From assembly GCA_009885185.1 (NCBI GenBank), contig VFLF01000072.1, forward strand, positions 1-9,974: DNA of 9,974 bases, written 5' to 3'. The notes below the pieces were generated by a model that worked only from the letters and a program-made list of their open reading frames with translations, did not search any database and was not told the DNA's origin. The DNA is from Nitrosomonadales bacterium (GTDB lineage: Bacteria; Pseudomonadota; Gammaproteobacteria; Burkholderiales; SG8-41). Positions 2,754 through 9,974 of the stretch are shown here, piece by piece (the first letter of the stretch is position 1; each line of letters begins with the position of its first letter). A program made the position numbers and the translations under genes.

Positions 2754-3734
2754 TTATTGCCGCTCGATGCCCGCCCGCTCAATGACAACCTTCCACTTGT
2801 CGATCTCCGCGCGCATCAGCTTGCGCGCCTCGTCGGGTGATGCACTTGCGCGACCGGTCGCGCCCATGTCGCCGAGCTTCTGCATGACATCGCCGGATTT
2901 CACCGCGGCGCTGATCTCCCGGTGCAGGCGCGTAATGATGGCATCGGGTGTTTTTGCCTTTACCGAAATGCCGGTCCACGAGGTCGCCTCATAGCCGGGC
3001 ACGCCGCTTTCCGCGAGCGTCGGCGTGTCGGGCAACAGGGGCGAACGTTGCGTGCTGCCTATGCCCAGCGCCTTGAGGGCGCCGCTTTTCAACTGCCCGA
3101 TCAGCGCCGGCACGGTTTCGACGACCAGCGGTATCTCGTTGCCGCGCAGCGCATTGATCGCCGCGGGCGTGGCCTTGAACGGTATTGTTTGCGCCTGGAT
3201 GTTTGTCATCGAGGTAAACAATTGCACCGCCAGGTGCTGCGTGGTGCCAATGTTGCCGGTGCCGATACTCAACTTGCCGGGGTGCTTCTTCGCGGTCGCC
3301 AGCACATCGGCAACGGTGTTCATGGTTGCATTCACGTTGGTGGCGAGCACAATATCGAAGTACGCCAGCGTCGATATGGCGGTGAAATCCCTGGCGACAT
3401 CATAGGGCAGCGACTTGAACAGACCCTGGCTGATCGCCGAGCCGTTGCCGGCCTGAACCAGCATGTAACCATCAGGCGGCCCCTGCAAGGCGATGTTCGC
3501 GGACACCACCATGCCCGCGGCCGGACGATTGTCGATGACGATCTGCTGACGCATGTTATCGGTCATTTTTTGCGCGACGATGCGCGCGGTGAGATCACCG
3601 ACGCCGCCCGGCGCGAACGGCACCAGCCATCGTATCGGCTTGCGTGGATAATCCTGTGCAGCGGCATGTGCGCAAACAGCAAGCGCGACGCACGCCGCGA
3701 CCAGACTCCGCACGATTATCTTTTTCAGGTTCAT
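2754..3734 (-). CDS. Bug-family (TctC-like) periplasmic binding protein
   Basis: This complete 326-residue Bug protein has a Sec signal peptide (MNLKKIIVRS start, hydrophobic to about residue 22, AHAAA before QDYP, cleavage near 24-26). The mature part shows the family order: RKPIRWLVPFAPGGVGDLTA, QQIVIDNRPAAG, GPPDGYMLV, LPYDVARDFTAI, a ligand-loop GTGNIGTTQHLA, and LLPDTPTLAESGVPGYE near the C-terminal third. Length matches the family. Bug proteins are extracytoplasmic carboxylate receptors, often orphans without TctA/TctB, as here. The ATG at 3734 has a weak GGAAAAG upstream. The gene follows a 159-nt repeat-containing gap, so it could open a second transcript covering this gene, the LLM gene, the dehydrogenase and the last Bug gene. 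The family is certain; the ligand is unknown. Confidence 0.95.
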   Translation of the reverse strand: MNLKKIIVRSLVAACVALAVCAHAAAQDYPRKPIRWLVPFAPGGVGDLTARIVAQKMTDNMRQQIVIDNRPAAGMVVSANIALQGPPDGYMLVQAGNGSAISQGLFKSLPYDVARDFTAISTLAYFDIVLATNVNATMNTVADVLATAKKHPGKLSIGTGNIGTTQHLAVQLFTSMTNIQAQTIPFKATPAAINALRGNEIPLVVETVPALIGQLKSGALKALGIGSTQRSPLLPDTPTLAESGVPGYEATSWTGISVKAKTPDAIITRLHREISAAVKSGDVMQKLGDMGATGRASASPDEARKLMRAEIDKWKVVIERAGIERQ

Positions 3735-3797
3735 CTGCTTTTCCGTGGGCCTCTACGGGACTCCCGATACATACAAGACAGAAAACAAAAGTCTCAC

Positions 3798-3879
3798 TGT
3801 CATTCCCGCGCAGGCGGGAATCCATAACACTGTGCCATTTTAGACGGGCTTATGGGTTCCCGCCTTCGCGGGAACGACA
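3798..3879. repeat. Pair of inverted ATTCCC...GGGAAT palindromes (dRS3/REP-like, possible small MITE)
   Basis: Two 27-nt blocks (3798-3824 and 3853-3879) are inverted copies of each other with about three mismatches. Each contains a perfect hairpin with an 8-bp stem and a 4-nt loop: ATTCCCGC-GCAG-GCGGGAAT at 3802-3821, and GTTCCCGC-CTTC-GCGGGAAC at 3856-3875. The consensus ATTCCC-N8-GGGAAT equals the neisserial dRS3 layout and resembles interspersed repeats common in beta- and gammaproteobacterial genomes. The pair fills the gap between an LLM gene and a Bug gene. On the minus strand a T-rich run follows the second hairpin only after about 11 nt, so terminator function is possible but not canonical. 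Confidence 0.85.
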
Positions 3880-3893
3880 GGGATGGCGAGGTC

Positions 3894-4949
3894 TCAGGCA
3901 GCCGTGATCTGCTCCAGCGGCGTCGGCGTGGCCTTTTGCAGGGCCGGCAGCAACTCTTCCGACATCAGCCGCATGCTGGCCATGGCGCTGGCGGCGGGCA
4001 TGCCGAGAAAGTGCGTGCGGAACACGAAGTGGGTCACGCCCAGTTCATTGATGTAGGGCTGAAGCTGATTCCAGCAGTCTTCGGGCGAGCCGATCACGAA
4101 ACGATCCTGCACCAGTTCTTCAAACGACTTGTCGATGCGCTCGTGTTCCGGCATGGCTTTGTCGCTCTCCCACTGCGCGTAGGCCTTGTACTTCTCCGAA
4201 ATATACGGCCCCGCCAGCGCCATGGCGGTGGCGCGATCCTTGGCGCAAAAGATTTCAATGCGGCAGGGGTTTTCTTTCGGCAGGGGTTTGCCGGCCTTGC
4301 GCAGTTCGTCCTTGTAGATCGCCAGCCGTTCTTTATGCGTAGCGAGCGTGGCCTTGGGGCTGTGGTAAAGGCAATCGCCCAACTGCGCGGCGCGACGGAT
4401 GGCATTGGGATGCTTGGCTGCAAACCATATGGGCGGGTAGGGCTTTTGCACGCACTTGAGCGAGAGGTGTGCATCTTTCAATATGCAGGTGTCGCTTTCG
4501 TAACTCACTTTGTCTTCTGTCCACAGCCGTTTGGCGACGACGAGGCATTCCTCGAAACGCTGCACCCGCTGGCCCTTGCGCACGCCAAACGCCTCGAACT
4601 CGGTGGTGCGGTAGCCCAGCCCCACGCCGAAAATCAACTTGCCGCGCGAGATCACATCGAGTGTGGCAATGGTCTCGGCGGTGTAGACGGGGTTGTGCAA
4701 AGGCGCCAGCAGAAGCCCCAGACCCAGCGACATGTCCCCCGCGTCGGCGGCAAGACGGGCAAGATAGGGCACCATTTGCAAACCCTGATTGCCGCCCTCG
4801 TTCAAATAATGCTGCCCGGTAAAGTACGAGTCCCATCCGCTGTCGCGGGCCTGCCGCACGATCACGATCTGTTCGTCCAGGGCTTGCACCATATCCGCCC
4901 CTTCGTACTGCTGGTTGCCGATCATGATGCCTGCTTTTACGCCACTCAT
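3894..4949 (-). CDS. LLM-class flavin- or F420-dependent oxidoreductase
   Basis: This 351-residue member of the luciferase-like monooxygenase superfamily is predicted to be a cytoplasmic TIM barrel. Visible motifs are SYFTGQHYL (41-49), the equivalent of the usual EHH-type segment, then LGLGLLLAPLHNPVYTAE (75-92), RGKLIFGVGLGYRTTEFEAFG (102-122), KGQRVQRFEE (125-134), and YPPIWFAAKHPNAIRRAA (171-188). Members transfer hydride from F420H2 or oxygenate substrates with FMNH2. The sequence does not decide the cofactor by eye; the F420 genes upstream in the same orientation favour F420. AAGGAA sits 6 nt before the ATG. The gene begins only 12 nt after the dienelactone-hydrolase-family stop, so the two are almost certainly co-transcribed and may act in successive steps. 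It shares little obvious motif detail with the LLM gene at 1647-2714. The substrate is unknown. Confidence 0.88.
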   Translation of the reverse strand: MSGVKAGIMIGNQQYEGADMVQALDEQIVIVRQARDSGWDSYFTGQHYLNEGGNQGLQMVPYLARLAADAGDMSLGLGLLLAPLHNPVYTAETIATLDVISRGKLIFGVGLGYRTTEFEAFGVRKGQRVQRFEECLVVAKRLWTEDKVSYESDTCILKDAHLSLKCVQKPYPPIWFAAKHPNAIRRAAQLGDCLYHSPKATLATHKERLAIYKDELRKAGKPLPKENPCRIEIFCAKDRATAMALAGPYISEKYKAYAQWESDKAMPEHERIDKSFEELVQDRFVIGSPEDCWNQLQPYINELGVTHFVFRTHFLGMPAASAMASMRLMSEELLPALQKATPTPLEQITAA

Positions 4950-4961
4950 TTTTGTTTCCTT

Positions 4962-5660
4962 CTACCCAAGATGCTGCTTAAAAAATTCCACCGTCAGCGC
5001 CAACGCGCGATCCGCGTCATCCTTGCGAAACGGCTTGCCGCCATGCCGCGCGAATGCGTGATCGGCGTCGGGATATTTATGGATGGTCACCAGCGGGTTG
5101 GGTGAAAGCCGCCGCTCCAGCAACTCGTTCACTTCGGCCTGCACCCAGCGATCTTTCATCGCCATGTGCAGCATGAACGGGCGGTGCAGGTTTTTCACTT
5201 CGCGGATGTTGTGCTCAATATACGTGCCGTAGTACGCCACCGCGCAGTCGATGTCAGTGCGGCAGCACAGCAGATAACACAGCTTGCCGCCGAGGCAATA
5301 ACCGACGGCGCCGGCGCGGCCGTTGCACTCCGGCAGGCCCGCGAGGTATTTCACCGTGTCTTCCATGTCGCGCACGCCGAGGTCGTAATCGAACTCGTAA
5401 TACAAATCGAACGCCTTTTTGCCGTCTTCCGGGTTGCGGTCGGACAACTCCACGCCCGGCTCCTGCCGCCAGAATAAATCCGGCACCAGGCACACAAAGC
5501 CGGCTTCCGCGAATTCGTGCGCGTGCTGGCGCATGGTGTCGTTCACGCCCCAGATTTCCATGATGGCGACGATGCCGCCTTTGGGCGGGCCGTCGGGCAC
5601 CGCGAGATAAGCGCCCATCATGCCGTCGCGCAGCGGGACCTGGATATTTTTCGTTTTCAT
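4962..5660 (-). CDS. Dienelactone hydrolase family protein
   Basis: This 232-residue alpha/beta-hydrolase of the dienelactone hydrolase family is close to the usual length. The nucleophile motif GYCLGG gives Cys122, and the triad is completed by Asp170 (KDRWV) and His201 (ADHAF). Glu35 in MEIWGVN matches the family's conserved glutamate that gates the cysteine. There is no signal peptide, so it is probably cytoplasmic. Characterised relatives hydrolyse dienelactones in the modified ortho-cleavage of halocatechols, but many family members act on other lactones or esters, so the substrate is open. AGGG lies 6-7 nt before the ATG. It sits 12 nt upstream of an LLM oxidoreductase gene, suggesting an oxidoreduction and a hydrolysis step in one pathway. 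The 99-nt gap before it contains a palindromic repeat. Confidence 0.93.
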   Translation of the reverse strand: MKTKNIQVPLRDGMMGAYLAVPDGPPKGGIVAIMEIWGVNDTMRQHAHEFAEAGFVCLVPDLFWRQEPGVELSDRNPEDGKKAFDLYYEFDYDLGVRDMEDTVKYLAGLPECNGRAGAVGYCLGGKLCYLLCCRTDIDCAVAYYGTYIEHNIREVKNLHRPFMLHMAMKDRWVQAEVNELLERRLSPNPLVTIHKYPDADHAFARHGGKPFRKDDADRALALTVEFFKQHLG

Positions 5661-5684
5661 AACGACCCTAAAATCAAAACCTTA

Positions 5685-5746
5685 GACACAGATTTCGCAG
5701 ATTAACCGCTCGGTTTTAATCTGCGTAAATCTGCGAAATCTGCGTC
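5685..5746. repeat. Palindromic intergenic repeat built from an ATCTGCG-type unit
   Basis: A 19-nt arm at 5685-5703 (GACACAGATTTCGCAGATT) is matched by its inverted copy at 5728-5746 with one mismatch. Inside it, 5696-5705 pairs perfectly with 5716-5725 (CGCAGATTAA / TTAATCTGCG), and AACCG-CT-CGGTT forms a small palindrome at 5704-5715. The right half also repeats the ATCTGCG unit in tandem. Two alternative hairpins are therefore possible. The element lies between a Bug gene and the hydrolase gene, downstream of one and just upstream of the other. Similar ATCTGCG-rich repeats are known in many environmental genomes. No canonical terminator T-run follows. Confidence 0.75.
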
Positions 5747-5759
5747 GAGGATGTTGCCC

Positions 5760-6728
5760 TTACTGTTGTTTTATCCCCGCCGCCTTCACCACCTTGCCCC
5801 ACTGCGCGTATTCCTGTTTCAGCAGATCGGCAAAGGCTTCCGGCGTGGAGCCGATGGTTTCCACCGCCATCGCGGTCATGCGTTCTTTGGTTTCGGGCGT
5901 GGCCAGCGCGCGTAGCGTATCGGCGCGCAATTTCATCACCAGCGCGCGCGGCAGCCCCGCGGGCCCGAGCAGGCCGTACCAGCCCGAGGTATTGAATTGC
6001 AATCCGCTCTCCGCCACCGTCGGCAAATCGGGCAGCAATGCCGAGCGTTTGTCACCGCCCACCGCCAGCGCGCGCAGGCGGCCCGCTTTCACCTGCGGCA
6101 GCGCCGCCGACAAGCCGTTGAACATCATGTTCACTTCGCCCGCGAGCAGCGCGGTCATGCCCGGCCCCGCGCCTTTGTACGGCACGTGGGTGATTTTCAC
6201 GCCGGCGGCGAGGTTGAATAATTCGCCGGCCATGTGGATACCCACGCCGGTGCCGCCGGAGGAGAAATTCAGTTTGCCGGGTTGTGATTTTGCGTAATCA
6301 ACCAGCTCTTTCACCGATTTCACCGGCAGGCTGGGATGCACCAGCAGCACGTACGGCGCGGAGGCCGCCAGCGTAATCGGCGTGAAATCCTTATTGGTGT
6401 CGTACGGCACCTGCTTCACCAGATGCGGCACGATGGCGAGCGGGCCGGAGAAGCCCATCAGCAAGGTGTAACCATCAGGCGCGGATTTCGCCACGATCTC
6501 GGCGCCGATCAAACCCGCCGCGCCCGCACGATTGTCGACCACGATTTGTTGGCCGAGCATGTCGCCAAGGCTGATGCTGATCGCGCGTGCGATCACATCC
6601 ACGGGACCGCCCGCCGACGACGGCGCGATCATGCGGATGGGGCGGTTGGGGTAGTTCGCGGTTTGCGCAGAGGCTAGCGTGGCAAGGCATATGCTTGCGG
6701 TCAGAGTGGTGATTCGCAGCCAGTTCAT
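5760..6728 (-). CDS. Bug-family (TctC-like) periplasmic binding protein downstream of cofC
   Basis: This complete Bug protein has 322 residues from the chosen start. It carries a Sec signal peptide (MNWLRITT start, hydrophobic core, ASA before QTANYP). Family motifs are RPIRMIAPSSAGGPVDVIAR, QQIVVDNRAGAAG, SAPDGYTLL, VPYDTNKDFTPI, the ligand loop SSGGTGVGIHMAGELF, and LLPDLPTVAESG. An in-frame ATG two codons earlier (6734) would leave the AAAGG directly against the start codon. The ATG at 6728 has it about 6 nt away, so the shorter form is preferred. The gene starts 26 nt after the cofC stop, so it appears to belong to the F420 operon. That is an unusual neighbour for cofactor genes and suggests that the F420-linked pathway acts on an imported carboxylate. 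The ligand is unknown. Confidence 0.94.
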   Translation of the reverse strand: MNWLRITTLTASICLATLASAQTANYPNRPIRMIAPSSAGGPVDVIARAISISLGDMLGQQIVVDNRAGAAGLIGAEIVAKSAPDGYTLLMGFSGPLAIVPHLVKQVPYDTNKDFTPITLAASAPYVLLVHPSLPVKSVKELVDYAKSQPGKLNFSSGGTGVGIHMAGELFNLAAGVKITHVPYKGAGPGMTALLAGEVNMMFNGLSAALPQVKAGRLRALAVGGDKRSALLPDLPTVAESGLQFNTSGWYGLLGPAGLPRALVMKLRADTLRALATPETKERMTAMAVETIGSTPEAFADLLKQEYAQWGKVVKAAGIKQQ

Positions 6729-6734
6729 GTTCAT

Positions 6735-6740
6735 CCTTTA
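6735..6740 (-). promoter_or_regulatory. Ribosome binding site deciding the Bug start
   Basis: On the minus strand the sequence reads TAAAGG and is followed immediately by ATGAACATG. The spacing is zero for the first ATG and 6 nt for the second, which favours initiation at 6728. Confidence 0.55.
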
Positions 6741-6754
6741 CCCGTATTTACCGG

Positions 6755-7453
6755 TTACTTGGTGCGCGATGTCAACGCCGCCGCGCCGCGCGGTGCGGTA
6801 TACGGCAGTGTGTCGAGAAAATCCCGCGGTGCGTCGTCGCCATTACACCATTCCACGAAATCATCCACCGTATCCAGATCAAACGCCAGCGCCGCATGCA
6901 CGCACGCCGCCGTGCGCGCGCCGCGCGCATTGCCCTGCGCGAGGTGTCGTGCGTAACTGTCTGCGCCGAACGCAAACTCGCGCACGCCCGCATTCACCAG
7001 CAGCGCATTGGTGCCCGCGTGATGCCGGTCAGGCGCGATCACCACGTCGGCGCCGGCAACCGGCACGGCCTCCAGCGCCTGCAATGCCGCCACGTCCATC
7101 CGAGGAAGATCGCACGGCAGCACCAGCAGGCGTTGCGCGCCCCGCGCGGCGGCGTACGCGGCCGCCTGCGACAGCGCGTCATTCAAATCCAGCGTAGCGT
7201 CCTGTTCCGGAAGTGCAACCGCGCCCGCTTTGCGCGCGAGTGCGCGCGTCACCTCGCATGGGCTCACCACGATGCAGCGTTGCGCGCCATGGACATCTCC
7301 CAGCCACTGTGTCACCACACCCAAGGTGCGCGCGAGCAGCCAGCGATTCAGTTTGCCGCGCGCCACGTCGCTCAACACGGCAGACAAACGCGACTTGCCC
7401 GCGTTCACGCCACGATGCGGCACAATCACGTATAAGTATTTGTTTTTATTCAT
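6755..7453 (-). CDS. cofC: CofC, phospho-acid guanylyltransferase of F420 biosynthesis
   Basis: This 232-residue nucleotidyltransferase of the CofC/FbiD family couples GTP to 2-phospholactate, phosphoenolpyruvate or 3-phosphoglycerate, depending on lineage, giving the activated precursor for CofD. Motifs are VPHRGVNAGKSRLSAVLS (11-28), DLNDAL (89-94), LPCDLPR (112-118) with the metal-binding Asp115, PDRHHAGTNALL (141-152), FGADSYARH (162-170) and FDLDTVDDF (191-199). The family normally has a lysine in the VPxK part of the first motif, and here it is Arg14; the second lysine (Lys20) is kept. The first codons overlap the end of cofD by 8 nt (ATGAATAA), so translation is probably coupled. The Bug gene starts 26 nt downstream. 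The family is secure. Which phospho-acid is used cannot be read by eye; a 3-phosphoglycerate-using CofC is known from Mycetohabitans (Paraburkholderia) rhizoxinica. Confidence 0.93.
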   Translation of the reverse strand: MNKNKYLYVIVPHRGVNAGKSRLSAVLSDVARGKLNRWLLARTLGVVTQWLGDVHGAQRCIVVSPCEVTRALARKAGAVALPEQDATLDLNDALSQAAAYAAARGAQRLLVLPCDLPRMDVAALQALEAVPVAGADVVIAPDRHHAGTNALLVNAGVREFAFGADSYARHLAQGNARGARTAACVHAALAFDLDTVDDFVEWCNGDDAPRDFLDTLPYTAPRGAAALTSRTK

Positions 7454-8387
7454 TATTTTGTGCCGCCGCGAATGAAATCACGCGCCGCGCCAGTGCCGCG
7501 CTTTCACTGCGATTGTGCATCAGCGTATCCGTCATCAACACTTTTTTATCCATGCGCTCGATCACGCCCGCCCATTTTGCATCCTGCCGGTCGATCACCC
7601 AATGATCGACGGCGCTGCCATAGTGTCGCGCCATTTCCGCGGCGGTGGGTTTGATGCCCAGCTCGCGCATCATCTTTGCCGCCGGGCCCTTGACCGCCGC
7701 GCCGCCGATGATCGGCGACACCGCGATCACCGGAAACGTGCGCGCCTTCAACCATGCCCTGATCGCCGGCACACTGAAAATCGGCGCGATGCTGACGAAC
7801 GGATTCGAGGGGCACAGCACCACCGCATCCACGCCAGCACGCATCACGCGCGCCAGCGCATCGGGCACGCGCGCCTTGCGCGCACCGGCGAAACGAAATC
7901 CTGTCACACGTGGCTTGCAGCGCTGGCGCACGAAATAATCCTGAAAATCGAGTTCGCCGGATGTTGTTTTAACGACGGTGCGTACCGGCGTTTCACTCAT
8001 CGGCACAATCGTGTGCCTGACACCGAAGCGCGCGGCCAGCTCGCGCGTCACGGTTGATAACGATGCACCTCGCGCCAGCGCCTCGCGGCGCAGCACATGC
8101 AGCGCCAGATCGCGGTCGCCCAACTGAAACCAGTCCGCGCCGCCGAGGCGTTTCACTTCATCCATGAAATTCCAGGTCTCGCCCGCTCGGCCCCAACCGG
8201 TTTTGGGGTTATTCACCCCCGCCAGCGTGTACAGCACGGTGTCCAGATCGGGGCACACGGTAAAGCCCAGGTGCTCGAAATCGTCACCGGTATTCACTAC
8301 GATGGTAAGTTCACTCGGCGGCAGCACCGCAGCCAGCCCCACCGCGAGCTTCGCGCCCCCCACACCGCCCGCGAGTGCCACGATCAT
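7446..8387 (-). CDS. cofD: CofD, phospho-acyl transferase forming F420-0 from Fo
   Basis: This complete 313-residue CofD/FbiA protein transfers the phospho-acid moiety from the GDP-linked CofC product to the deazaflavin Fo, giving F420-0 or its variant. Motifs are ALAGGVGGAKLAVGL (4-18), VNTGDDFEHLG (31-41), CPDLDTVLYTLAG (45-57), GWGRAGETW (64-72), LGDRDLALH (89-97), FQDYFV (148-153), PSNPFVSI (193-200) and VSPIIGGAAVKGPAAK (223-238). The acidic residues in NTGDD and PDLD correspond to the metal and substrate site of the family. The start codon overlaps the cofE stop by 4 nt (ATGA), and the stop lies within cofC, so the three genes form one tightly coupled unit. No domain is missing and the length is normal. 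The assignment is unambiguous. Confidence 0.97.
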   Translation of the reverse strand: MIVALAGGVGGAKLAVGLAAVLPPSELTIVVNTGDDFEHLGFTVCPDLDTVLYTLAGVNNPKTGWGRAGETWNFMDEVKRLGGADWFQLGDRDLALHVLRREALARGASLSTVTRELAARFGVRHTIVPMSETPVRTVVKTTSGELDFQDYFVRQRCKPRVTGFRFAGARKARVPDALARVMRAGVDAVVLCPSNPFVSIAPIFSVPAIRAWLKARTFPVIAVSPIIGGAAVKGPAAKMMRELGIKPTAAEMARHYGSAVDHWVIDRQDAKWAGVIERMDKKVLMTDTLMHNRSESAALARRVISFAAAQNNE

Positions 8388-9145
8388 CGGAACAAATCCT
8401 CGGCCTCATCGCGCAGCAGTTCTTTGACCGAACCCTCGCGCGGCGCGTAGGGAAAACCGCGCACCATCACGGCGGGCGTGCCTTCATCCGCCTGCCCCAT
8501 CACCAGCGATGCGGCGGCGGCCAGTTCATCGGAGGCGGCCACCTGCGTGACCCGCAACGTGCGCCCTTCGCGGTCTTTGTTGCCGCGCATATCGACCAGC
8601 GCGGGGAGCCCCGCCACGCCGATGGCCGTGCCGGTAACGCCGTGGCGCCAGGCGCGGCCGAAGCTGTCGATAATCAGCACGCCCATCTCAACGTCACACT
8701 TATCGCGCAGTTCGTCACGGAGCTTGCGCGCGGACGCATCGGGGTCTTGCGGCAACAGCAACACCGCTTCGTCACCGTCTGGCACATTCGATTGATCGAT
8801 GCCCGCGTTCGCCATGATGAAACCCAGCTTGTGTTCGGTGATGATGATGCCCGGTTTCACGCGCAGCACCTTGTTTGATTCACGCAGCATGAGTTCGACG
8901 AGGCGCGGGTCTTTGTCGGCTTGCTGTGCAATGGTTTGTGCGCGTTCCGAGGGCGTAACGCTGGAGAGTGGCACTACCCGGCCTTCGGCCTTGGAGATAA
9001 TTTTTTGCGCGAGGACGAGGATGTCGGCGGGTTGTGGGGACAAGCCGGTGCGCGTTAGCGCCGCCAACAATAGGCTGCCGAGCGACGCTCTTTGCGTCAC
9101 TTCGGGAATTCCAGGCAGGGCAATAAGTCGGAGTTCGCGCGGCAT
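8384..9145 (-). CDS. cofE: CofE, F420-0:L-glutamate ligase (stand-alone form)
   Basis: This 253-residue GTP-dependent ligase adds glutamate(s) to F420-0. Motifs are LPGIPEV (10-16), VLAQKIISKAEGR (44-56), EHKLGFIMANAGIDQSNV (104-121), LLPQDPDASARKLRDEL (130-146), DSFGRAWRHG (160-169), IGVAGLPALVDMRGNKD (175-191) and a final AVMVRGFPY (225-233). It ends after the CofE domain, so it lacks the C-terminal nitroreductase-like domain found in actinobacterial FbiB. The C-terminal ATGA overlap links it to cofD. The ATG at 9145 fits the usual CofE N-terminus, but the 18 nt between it and the upstream MITE-like repeat contain no convincing Shine-Dalgarno, so initiation may be weak or altered by the repeat. 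The functional assignment is very secure. Confidence 0.97.
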   Translation of the reverse strand: MPRELRLIALPGIPEVTQRASLGSLLLAALTRTGLSPQPADILVLAQKIISKAEGRVVPLSSVTPSERAQTIAQQADKDPRLVELMLRESNKVLRVKPGIIITEHKLGFIMANAGIDQSNVPDGDEAVLLLPQDPDASARKLRDELRDKCDVEMGVLIIDSFGRAWRHGVTGTAIGVAGLPALVDMRGNKDREGRTLRVTQVAASDELAAAASLVMGQADEGTPAVMVRGFPYAPREGSVKELLRDEAEDLFR

Positions 9146-9163
9146 GTGCGCGTCTGTGGTTGC

Positions 9164-9316
9164 CCCTCACCCCAACCCACCACCCCTCAAGGGGGTGCTG
9201 TGCTGAGTCCCCGCAAGCGGGGCGAGGGGGCGGCTTGGTGGCAATGGAAAGAGTTCCACGCCAACCAACAAAACGGCCCCCTCGCCCGCCTGGGCGGGAG
9301 AGGGTTGGGGTGAGGG
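9164..9316. repeat. MITE-like nested inverted repeat between the F420 reductase gene and cofE
   Basis: A perfect 15-bp terminal inverted repeat, CCCTCACCCCAACCC at 9164-9178 and its complement at 9302-9316, bounds about 153 bp. A second perfect 12-bp pair lies inside (GGGCGAGGGGGC at 9220-9231, complement at 9276-9287). Each half also holds its own hairpin: CCCCGC-AA-GCGGGG at 9209-9222 and CCCGCC-TG-GGCGGG at 9285-9298. The element encodes no protein. The same module appears widely in proteobacterial intergenic regions, where it is often mistranslated as short proline- and serine-rich ORFs. It splits the predicted operon and ends 18 nt before the cofE start. No flanking target duplication was obvious. 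Confidence 0.85.
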
Positions 9317-9347
9317 TAGGGCGCGTGCGTTCATACTAAAGGTTACG

Positions 9348-9974
9348 TTAAGGAGATGGCGGCACGCCAGTAATGCGTATCCCCGACCCCGCGACCTTGT
9401 AACGCTTGTTAATCGCAATCAACACCGAGGTCAGCGCTTCGGAGGCAATCGAATTCGCCAGCACGCCCGCGTGCCACGCGCGCAGTCCCGCGTCGTGTGC
9501 AAGCCCAATGACCACTTCGCGCGCCTCGGCATCATCGCCGCACACCAGCACATCGCAATCGACTTCATGCGCGGGGTCTTTCAAATGCGTGGCGGACACA
9601 TTTTGAAACGCAGACACCACTCTCACCTGCGGGCCGAGCCGCCGTTGCAACGCCACCACCGCCGACTCGCCATGGGGCAACTGCACGCGATCCACCTTGG
9701 GCGGCGCGAGCGGCACGGTGACATCGATCAGAATTTTGCCCGCCAGTTGCGCAGCCACGCTGTCCGCTGTCGCCAGTTGTGCTGCGTAGGGCACGGTGAG
9801 CACCACCACCCCGGCCTGCGCGGCATCTGCGTTGCTTGCGCCGCGCACCGTTGATTTGCCGCCGAGCAATTGATTTAATTCTGCCGCGCCCGCTGCCGCT
9901 TTGGCTTTATCACGCGAGCCGATCACAACGTCGTGCCCCGCCAGCGCCCAGCGATACGCCAGCCCGCCGCCTTC
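9348..9974 (-). CDS. npdG: NADPH:F420 oxidoreductase (NPDR/FNO), N-terminus beyond window
   Basis: The C-terminal 208 codons of an F420-dependent NADP reductase are present, with the reading frame open to the window edge. The first visible residues, EGGGLAYRWALAGHDVVIGS, continue the Rossmann glycine loop and lead to SRDKAKAAA, the NADP-2'-phosphate-binding segment typical of this family. Further motifs are VVVLTVPYAAQ, ILIDVTVPL, VVSAFQNVSATHL and CDVLVCGDD, and the protein ends in RITGVPPSP. Roughly 10-15 residues are probably missing. The enzyme moves hydride between NADPH and F420; in aerobic bacteria it usually supplies F420H2. A GTG at 9926 is an internal codon, not the start, because the conserved glycine loop lies upstream of it. 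The gene precedes cofE in the same direction, separated by 202 nt containing a repeat. The family assignment is firm; the symbol follows common usage. Confidence 0.93.
   Translation of the reverse strand, partial: EGGGLAYRWALAGHDVVIGSRDKAKAAAGAAELNQLLGGKSTVRGASNADAAQAGVVVLTVPYAAQLATADSVAAQLAGKILIDVTVPLAPPKVDRVQLPHGESAVVALQRRLGPQVRVVSAFQNVSATHLKDPAHEVDCDVLVCGDDAEAREVVIGLAHDAGLRAWHAGVLANSIASEALTSVLIAINKRYKVAGSGIRITGVPPSP

Follow-up and report, generated by a model that had tools for sequence, protein, structure and literature searches.

An F420 gene row adjoining putative F420-using enzymes in an apparent uncultured betaproteobacterium

Introduction

The actinobacterial npd system for picrate and dinitrophenol combines NpdG with luciferase-like (LLM-type) hydride transferases and a hydrolase. 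Neither a dienelactone hydrolase (DLH) nor a Bug receptor is known to be part of that system. F420 genes in the order cofGH (annotated cofH)-npdG-cofE-cofD-cofC, of which the part npdG-cofE-cofD-cofC is also seen here, lie on one strand of plasmid 2 of Aromatoleum aromaticum EbN1 and of plasmid pCME4A9I of Croceicoccus marinus. In Croceicoccus, LLM genes stand on both flanks of the operon. A betaproteobacterial 3PG-F420 pathway with CofC and CofD is described for Mycetohabitans (Paraburkholderia) rhizoxinica (PMC8498797, PMC8764529). According to the former, a 2021 review, none of the F420-dependent enzymes known so far has a homologue in P. rhizoxinica. The review adds that neither a reductase using F420H2 nor a dehydrogenase reducing F420 had been studied experimentally in F420 producers beyond Actinobacteria, and it calls for experiments on the role of F420 there (PMC8498797).

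Here we analysed a window, the whole 9,974-nt stretch of DNA, whose host lineage appears to be an uncultured betaproteobacterium. In this window, a conserved row of genes for F420, a rare redox cofactor, adjoins enzymes that look able to use it.

Results and Discussion

The sequence-only reading had described a seven-gene row on a single strand, and all seven genes were confirmed as open frames on the minus strand. They are npdG/fno, for NADPH:F420 oxidoreductase (9348-9974, with its 5' end beyond the window edge); cofE, for F420-0:gamma-glutamyl ligase (8384-9145; PF01996); cofD, for 2-phospho-L-lactate transferase (7446-8387); cofC, for a phospho-lactate/PEP guanylyltransferase of non-3PG type (6755-7453); Bug1, for a TctC-type periplasmic receptor, the first gene 3' of cofC (5760-6734; PF03401); a gene of the DLH family (4962-5660; PF01738); and LLM1, for a luciferase-like enzyme (Bac_luciferase) whose fold is nearest to flavin-type monooxygenases (3894-4949). 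The row extends further on the minus strand with Bug2, another TctC-type receptor (2754-3734; PF03401), LLM2, a luciferase-like enzyme on the Mer/F420 side (1647-2714), an octopine-dehydrogenase-like NAD(P) enzyme (492-1613; PF02317), and Bug3, an open frame (1-495) with its 3' end beyond the window, judged from relatives to be a TctC-type receptor.

The overlaps are 4 nt between cofE and cofD and 8 nt between cofD and cofC, while 202 nt separate npdG from cofE, 99 nt Bug1 from DLH, and 12 nt DLH from LLM1. The spacing of 26 nt reported earlier between cofC and Bug1 holds for the second ATG of Bug1; the gap to the Bug1 coordinates given here is 20 nt. A terminator scan for a transcription stop between these two genes found no terminator-like site there. 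Across the whole window there were 8 such sites, compared to 10.8 (sd 3.3) in shuffles, and both promoter and terminator scans gave results at or below the level of shuffled sequence. Inverted repeats lie between DLH and Bug1 (5675-5756; 32-nt arms, 81% complementary) and between Bug2 and LLM1 (3794-3883; 34-nt arms, 88% complementary), and nested inverted repeats lie between cofE and npdG (9164-9316; two 32-nt arm pairs, 78% and 75%).

The genes taken to define bacterial F420 biosynthesis each scored above their own curated NCBIfam equivalog cut-off: CofC reached 127.4 bits (TIGR03552, cut-off 105), CofD 307.6 bits (TIGR01819, cut-off 257.45), and CofE 278.1 bits (TIGR01916, cut-off 180.65). 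The NpdG score of 179.5 bits, obtained despite the cut 5' end, exceeds the TIGR01915 equivalog cut-off of 149.8 and identifies an NADPH:F420 oxidoreductase (Fno/NpdG). The window does not contain fbiC. In most of the relatives whose loci were mapped, this gene is directly upstream of npdG, and the copy scanned, from locus L208, scored above cut-offs. The npdG orthologues in relatives are 71-91% identical and adjoin cofE. The NCBIfam scores support the earlier proposal that the cluster makes and reduces F420.

The form of F420 was approached through the residues of CofC. A 3PG-type CofC was defined by M91 and S162 (and C95 and H145) in MycB3 numbering, with the residues taken from PMC8764529. 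At M91, C95, H145, and S162 of the 3PG enzyme, the window CofC has L, L, A, and G. Neither M91 nor S162 occurs in any of 20 CofC proteins (the window and 19 relatives), C95 occurs in one (L001), and H145 in none. We therefore rejected 3PG-F420 as the product and predict a different product in these betaproteobacteria. Compared to P. rhizoxinica, the window differs both in its CofC, which is without M91 and S162, and in the presence of LLM2.

Downstream of cofC, the known operons diverge from the window: the next feature 3' is a crotonase-family gene in EbN1, an LLM of TIGR03619 in Croceicoccus, and Bug1 here. When the proteins of the window were used as tblastn queries against both (E 1e-15), only fbiC, Npd, CofE, and CofD were found, and no DLH, LLM1, LLM2, or Bug1; since CofC and LLM genes that are annotated there escaped this threshold as well, distant homologues may still be present. 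Unlike the picrate npd system, the window cluster carries cofactor synthesis itself, and the parallel with NpdG and its LLM hydride transferases stays an analogy. Among open-access journal papers, none was found that joins F420, dienelactone hydrolase, and luciferase, none that joins F420 biosynthesis with tripartite tricarboxylate, and none that combines most of F420, cofD, LLM, Betaproteobacteria, and Bug.

The conserved synteny that the sequence-only reading had asked for was found in relatives, where the usual order is LLM3-Bug-fbiC-npdG-cofE-cofD-cofC. Bug1 is the next gene 3' of cofC at 17 of 22 cofC loci. Orthologues of Bug1, DLH, and LLM3 keep their positions in family members that share 63-85% CofD identity with the window. 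LLM1 and LLM2 are often positioned away from the F420 genes; of the 17 family genomes that carry LLM1 together with cofD, 9 have the order cofC-(Bug1)-DLH-LLM1 and 8 have LLM1 elsewhere.

The DLH protein matches 1din with E = 3.3e-41. It conserves E36, C123, D171, and H202, which we take to be catalytic in dienelactone hydrolase, together with R206, presumably one of two substrate arginines; the other, R81, is replaced by G. Four family genomes (G016, G033, G038, and G043) carry the Bug1-DLH module without cofD, and a single F420 pathway running from cofC onward was rejected on this ground. The earlier claim that F420 is spent on a Bug-imported organic acid or its derivative finds no support here for the same reason: DLH and its Bug also form a module free of cofD. 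A first look gave 67 to 1044 Bug candidates per genome (74 genomes). The Bug1 search at E 1e-90 listed matches in at least 72 of the 74 genomes, mostly other Bugs, so that orthology of Bug1 was assigned by identity and position only.

None of the three luciferase-like proteins passes a curated NCBIfam cut-off. The best PDB sequence match of LLM2 is Mer 1z69 (E = 3.3e-26), and all 15 of its 15 best structural matches are F420 enzymes, meaning that its nearest solved relatives use F420. Mer, the F420-dependent methylene-H4MPT reductase (1z69, 8qpl), is 26% identical to LLM2 in the structural alignment. LLM2 scores below the curated cut-offs for F420 LLMs (best TIGR03842, 131.5 of 295.45 bits), among them the Mer equivalog TIGR03555 (107.9 of 348.7 bits), and is therefore classed as F420-type by fold and sequence only, outside any named family. 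The best NCBIfam model of LLM3 is the F420 family TIGR03619, below its cut-off, and LLM3 was found only alongside cofD (25/25). The octopine-dehydrogenase-like protein has 1bg6 as its nearest solved relative (E = 7.3e-25), and its gene occurs in 24 of 74 family genomes, 23 of them with cofD.

The evidence on the LLM1 cofactor is split. Its best NCBIfam model is also TIGR03619, at 124.1 bits against a cut-off of 166.9, which leaves it under every curated F420 LLM cut-off; the best FMN model gives 84.7. Nearly all genomes with LLM1 have cofD (17 of 18 in the family, 7 of 7 in an order sample), an association that loses its significance when kinship is taken into account. This distribution counts against FMN use, since an FMN enzyme would not need F420. 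The LLM1 model is structurally closest to luciferases and flavin-type monooxygenases by Foldseek and VIA-align, although VIA-align ranks only chains already ranked by Foldseek and families outside that set could match too; when hits are sorted by Foldseek E-value, Mer, which uses F420, comes as early as rank 9. Its nearest solved relatives are thus not F420 enzymes. One of them, the luciferase-like monooxygenase RslO1 (7bip), is 25% identical to LLM1; it is described as an enzyme of rishirilide biosynthesis whose FMN dependence was itself deduced from structure (PMC8093152). The Pfam scan, which covered 10 window proteins, turned up no flavin reductase. Overall, distribution and NCBIfam score lean toward F420, and fold and nearest solved relative lean toward FMN; a structure ranking cannot prove a cofactor. 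The expectation of F420-type LLMs in the cluster is supported for LLM2 and LLM3 but, given its flavin-type fold, not for LLM1, the sole LLM of the original seven genes. Against the phylum sample (392 genomes, E 1e-50), LLM1 gave 2 matches, G003 itself and one at 35%, and its 492 records among plasmid proteins were all below 60% identity.

Across the 74 family genomes, co-occurrence with cofD was assessed by Fisher tests, which ignore kinship. The counts (gene with cofD/gene only/cofD only/neither) were 17/1/14/42 for LLM1 (p = 1.6e-7), 13/1/18/42 for LLM2 (p = 2e-5), 21/7/10/36 for DLH (p = 9e-6), and 23/1/8/42 for the octopine-dehydrogenase-like gene (p = 2e-11). These associations are weakened by kinship. 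Independent pairs were drawn on a recA tree, on which LLM1 changes state about 5 times. Of the 74 genomes, 66 gave a recA match; 65 sequences were collected from these, and the 61 that exceeded 500 bases entered the tree. For pairs differing in the gene, cofD differed the same way/the other way/not at all in 2.6/0/1.4 for LLM1, 0.4/0/2.6 for LLM2, 2.1/0.1/3.8 for DLH, and 3.5/1.0/1.5 for the octopine-dehydrogenase-like gene, none of which is significant. For pairs differing in cofD, LLM3 was borderline (5.3/0/1.7, median p 0.06) and LLM1 was not significant (2.6/0/4.4, median p 0.25). Without G001, G057, and G076, the LLM3 result was 5.7/0/1.3 (median p 0.03); G002 was also named for exclusion, but is absent from the tree. 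Of the two recA matches in G001, one is truncated, and the copy used is nearly identical to the recA of G057, so the G001 bin may be mixed.

We consider it probable that the window holds an F420 operon with two movable modules attached at its downstream end, Bug1-DLH and LLM1/LLM2/octopine-dehydrogenase-like, with LLM2 and LLM3 as F420H2 reductases and LLM1 most likely an FMN oxygenase. A rival explanation, in line with the sequence-only reading, is one operon in which LLM1 and LLM2 are both F420H2 hydride transferases working in a picrate-like manner on an acid captured by Bug1 and processed by DLH. The short gaps at cofC-Bug1 (20 nt) and DLH-LLM1 (12 nt), the near confinement of LLM1 to cofD-bearing genomes, its top score in an F420 family, and the shared order in 9 of 17 genomes all agree with this. 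However, that score is below the cut-off, the LLM1 model is closest to flavin-type enzymes, LLM1 lies elsewhere in the other 8 genomes, Bug1-DLH also exists without cofD, and 99 nt with an inverted repeat separate Bug1 from DLH, which makes a single operon of this kind doubtful. Mere adjacency would mean that F420 serves LLMs elsewhere in the genome and that the Bug, DLH, and LLM neighbors, from abundant families, are hitchhikers. There are indeed 2 to 22 LLM1 matches per relative genome (E 0.001, 13 genomes) besides the many Bug candidates, and both the cofD-free Bug1-DLH module and the scattered LLM1 and LLM2 fit this idea, but the kept positions of Bug1, DLH, and LLM3, the restriction of LLM3 to genomes with cofD, and the F420-type fold of LLM2 render it quite improbable.

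If the operon with two modules is correct, FbiC, CofC, CofD, and CofE would produce F420 of a non-3PG form, and Npd would reduce it with NADPH. LLM2 in the window and LLM3 upstream of fbiC would use hydride from F420H2 to reduce a catabolic intermediate at a carbonyl or unsaturated group, and LLM1 would most likely oxygenate a related intermediate with FMNH2 and O2. DLH would open an enol-lactone or lactone, and Bug1-DLH, which is present without F420 too, would act as a catabolic unit. What the sequences themselves establish is which genes are present, to which families they belong, how they are ordered, how far that order is conserved, and how the genes are distributed; the cofactor of each LLM is what we infer here, and the pathway and substrate are guesses. 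A bolder version, which we rate as unlikely, dedicates F420 to an undescribed catabolic route: the gene pair LLM1, a flavin-type oxygenase, and LLM2, an F420H2 reductase, would act in turn on one substrate, DLH would open the lactone product, and ACMSD-like and Fe-ADH/maleylacetate-reductase-like enzymes would then decarboxylate or reduce it.

The conserved row provides a shortlist of candidates, with LLM3 first and LLM2 second, and with Npd supplying the electrons. The row also marks a limit of gene-neighborhood inference, as Bug1-DLH, part of the apparent pathway, also occurs without the cofactor genes.

Among the genes further along, Bug2 orthologues lie 3' of LLM1 at three loci (L205, L206, and L207), and Bug3 orthologues, 86-89% identical, lie downstream at L204, L207, and L208. 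Genes for ACMSD-like and Fe-ADH/maleylacetate-reductase-like enzymes were seen near the Bug1-DLH or LLM modules in relatives.

Gene order around cofC

The window is filled by 11 open frames, all on the minus strand. CofC, CofD, CofE and NpdG exceeded the curated equivalog cut-offs in profile scoring, and on sequence grounds the identity of the cofactor genes is certain. The window stops within npdG; therefore, any FO synthase gene (fbiC) upstream would fall outside view.

A CofD scan gave at least 80 loci, to which further neighbourhoods of relatives were added. The best 11 of these loci (L001-L011) are betaproteobacterial by title, with CofD 62-80% identical to that of the window. Bordetella parapertussis is the title of MAG records L001 (CofD 80%) and L009 (66%), and Klebsiella pneumoniae that of MAG record L022 (56%). 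Misbinning or misnaming seems to explain these titles, and the Bordetella parapertussis label is probably wrong.

Typically, the order runs LLM3 - Bug - fbiC - npdG - cofE - cofD - cofC - Bug1 - DLH, where LLM3 is a luciferase-like gene, Bug1 (5760-6734 in the window) a TctC-type receptor and DLH (4962-5660) of the dienelactone hydrolase family. In relatives, an optional tail follows DLH: LLM1 - LLM2 or Bug2 - octopine-dehydrogenase-like gene - Bug. The fbiC of L208 passed the CofG, CofH and CofGH cut-offs. cofC was visible in 22 of the 24 loci compared (no match is seen in L005, and L011 stops at cofD). The gene match directly after cofC was Bug1 in 17 of these 22, DLH in four and neither in one; DLH lay downstream on the same strand in 18, on the opposite strand in one and was unseen in three. 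The gene row is real and conserved. Since the loci were picked for carrying cofD or LLM1, genome counts are the fairer figures.

LLM3 lay upstream in 19/24 loci. The sequence stops at or before its position in L002, L007, L204 and L209, and L006, with only 2.4 kb upstream, shows neither fbiC nor LLM3. L005 and L011 have LLM3 and no fbiC match. L005 departs from its relatives (10001-12053): LLM3 immediately precedes cofE, neither fbiC nor npdG gives a match, and Bug1 comes after cofD, with no CofC detected in between.

Known F420 operons and the expected F420 variant

The operon core is already known, and the arrangement with Bug and DLH is a variant of it. Aromatoleum aromaticum EbN1 and Croceicoccus marinus each have a plasmid with an annotated cofH-npdG-cofE-cofD-cofC core, and Paraburkholderia and Variovorax carry cof genes in other orders. 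The full operon of EbN1 lies on plasmid 2 (L318), typed conjugative, with a PPOX-family gene upstream, a crotonase downstream and transposases around it. EbN1, a named betaproteobacterial strain, is a possible host for F420 work. The betaproteobacterial arrangement with Bug and DLH was not found in the open-access literature, the scope of the search. According to a 2021 review (PMC8498797), no F420-dependent enzyme from F420 producers outside Actinobacteria had yet been examined by experiment.

At the positions of the 3PG enzyme residues M91, C95, H145 and S162 (PMC8764529), the window CofC has L, L, A and G. M91 or S162 occurred in 0/20 CofC sequences (window plus 19 relatives). As read from sequence, the product should be F420 from 2-phospholactate or, given a reductase, phosphoenolpyruvate.

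Candidate F420 users and separable modules

Within the family of G003 (74 genomes), cofD was found in 31 at E 1e-40. LLM3 occurred in 25 genomes, all with cofD; LLM1 (3894-4949; 81-94% identical) in 18, 17 with cofD; LLM2 (1647-2714; at least 84%) in 14, 13 with cofD; the octopine-dehydrogenase-like gene in 24, 23 with cofD (exception G020); and DLH (80% or more, two being fragments) in 28, 21 with cofD. At E 1e-60, LLM2 matches reached 17 family genomes in all, the extras being one 58% and several 41-45% homologues. G021 is the sole family genome with LLM1 and LLM2 orthologues but without cofD; it may be incomplete, because both lie on small contigs and recA was likewise not found. In the order sample, cofD was present in 31/399 genomes and LLM1 (at least 83% identity) in seven, all with cofD. 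G011, G131 and G213 are LLM1-bearing genomes there outside the family list, and G082 has a 39% LLM1 homologue with cofD. Kinship among genomes makes these co-occurrence counts weaker than they appear.

Among the 17 family genomes with LLM1 and cofD, LLM1 followed DLH on the cofD contig in nine (G002, G003, G004, G017, G068, G069, G070, G076, G077) and was located elsewhere in eight. LLM1 adjoined LLM2 in 10/14 of the genomes carrying an LLM2 orthologue. Elsewhere, alphaproteobacterial MAGs (L013, L017, L018, L031, L036, among the best 80 CofD loci) carry five tandem LLM genes, 36-43% identical to LLM1, downstream of cofD at a distance of about 3-10 kb and on the opposite strand; one gene is split in L031.

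The sequence-only reading had the cluster make F420, reduce it and spend it on an imported organic acid or its derivative. The F420 chemistry holds in part: LLM2 and LLM3 are better candidates for F420 users than LLM1. The Bug1-DLH pair is a neighbour of the F420 genes that also exists independently of them. Bug1 (67-69%) adjoins DLH (82-88%) in G016, G033, G038 and G043, family genomes in which cofD was not found at E 1e-40. In these four, an amidohydrolase lies within ~2 kb of the pair, and one is also beside DLH in G059 and G062, both likewise without cofD. The L005 member of this amidohydrolase family most resembles 2-amino-3-carboxymuconate-6-semialdehyde decarboxylase (E = 1.7e-47). An iron-containing alcohol dehydrogenase lies 0.5 to 4 kb from the LLM1/LLM2 pair in four of the eight compared loci holding both (L195, L196, L199, L202); its solved relatives include maleylacetate reductases, and its best NCBIfam score, under cut-off, is for 4-hydroxybutyrate dehydrogenase. 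The neighbours form a catabolic setting that points to no particular substrate.

In 11 of the 32 sequences compared (31 loci plus the window), there is a thiamine-diphosphate enzyme belonging to the acetolactate-synthase superfamily (L004 15617-17290, L204 12061, L208 18821). It lies downstream of the cof genes on the opposite strand in 10/24 loci, and near LLM1 in L201. Among the 25 NCBIfam families listed for it, the L004 protein reached the cut-off of none.

Intergenic repeats

A REP-like inverted repeat is present in each of three intergenic gaps of the window (3794-3883, 5675-5756 and 9164-9316). The TTCCCGCNNNNGCGGGAA pattern also occurs in the Bug1-DLH gap of L003 (12679-12749), whereas that of L208 has AATCTGCGAAATCTGCG (12810); thus, the same gap holds different repeats.
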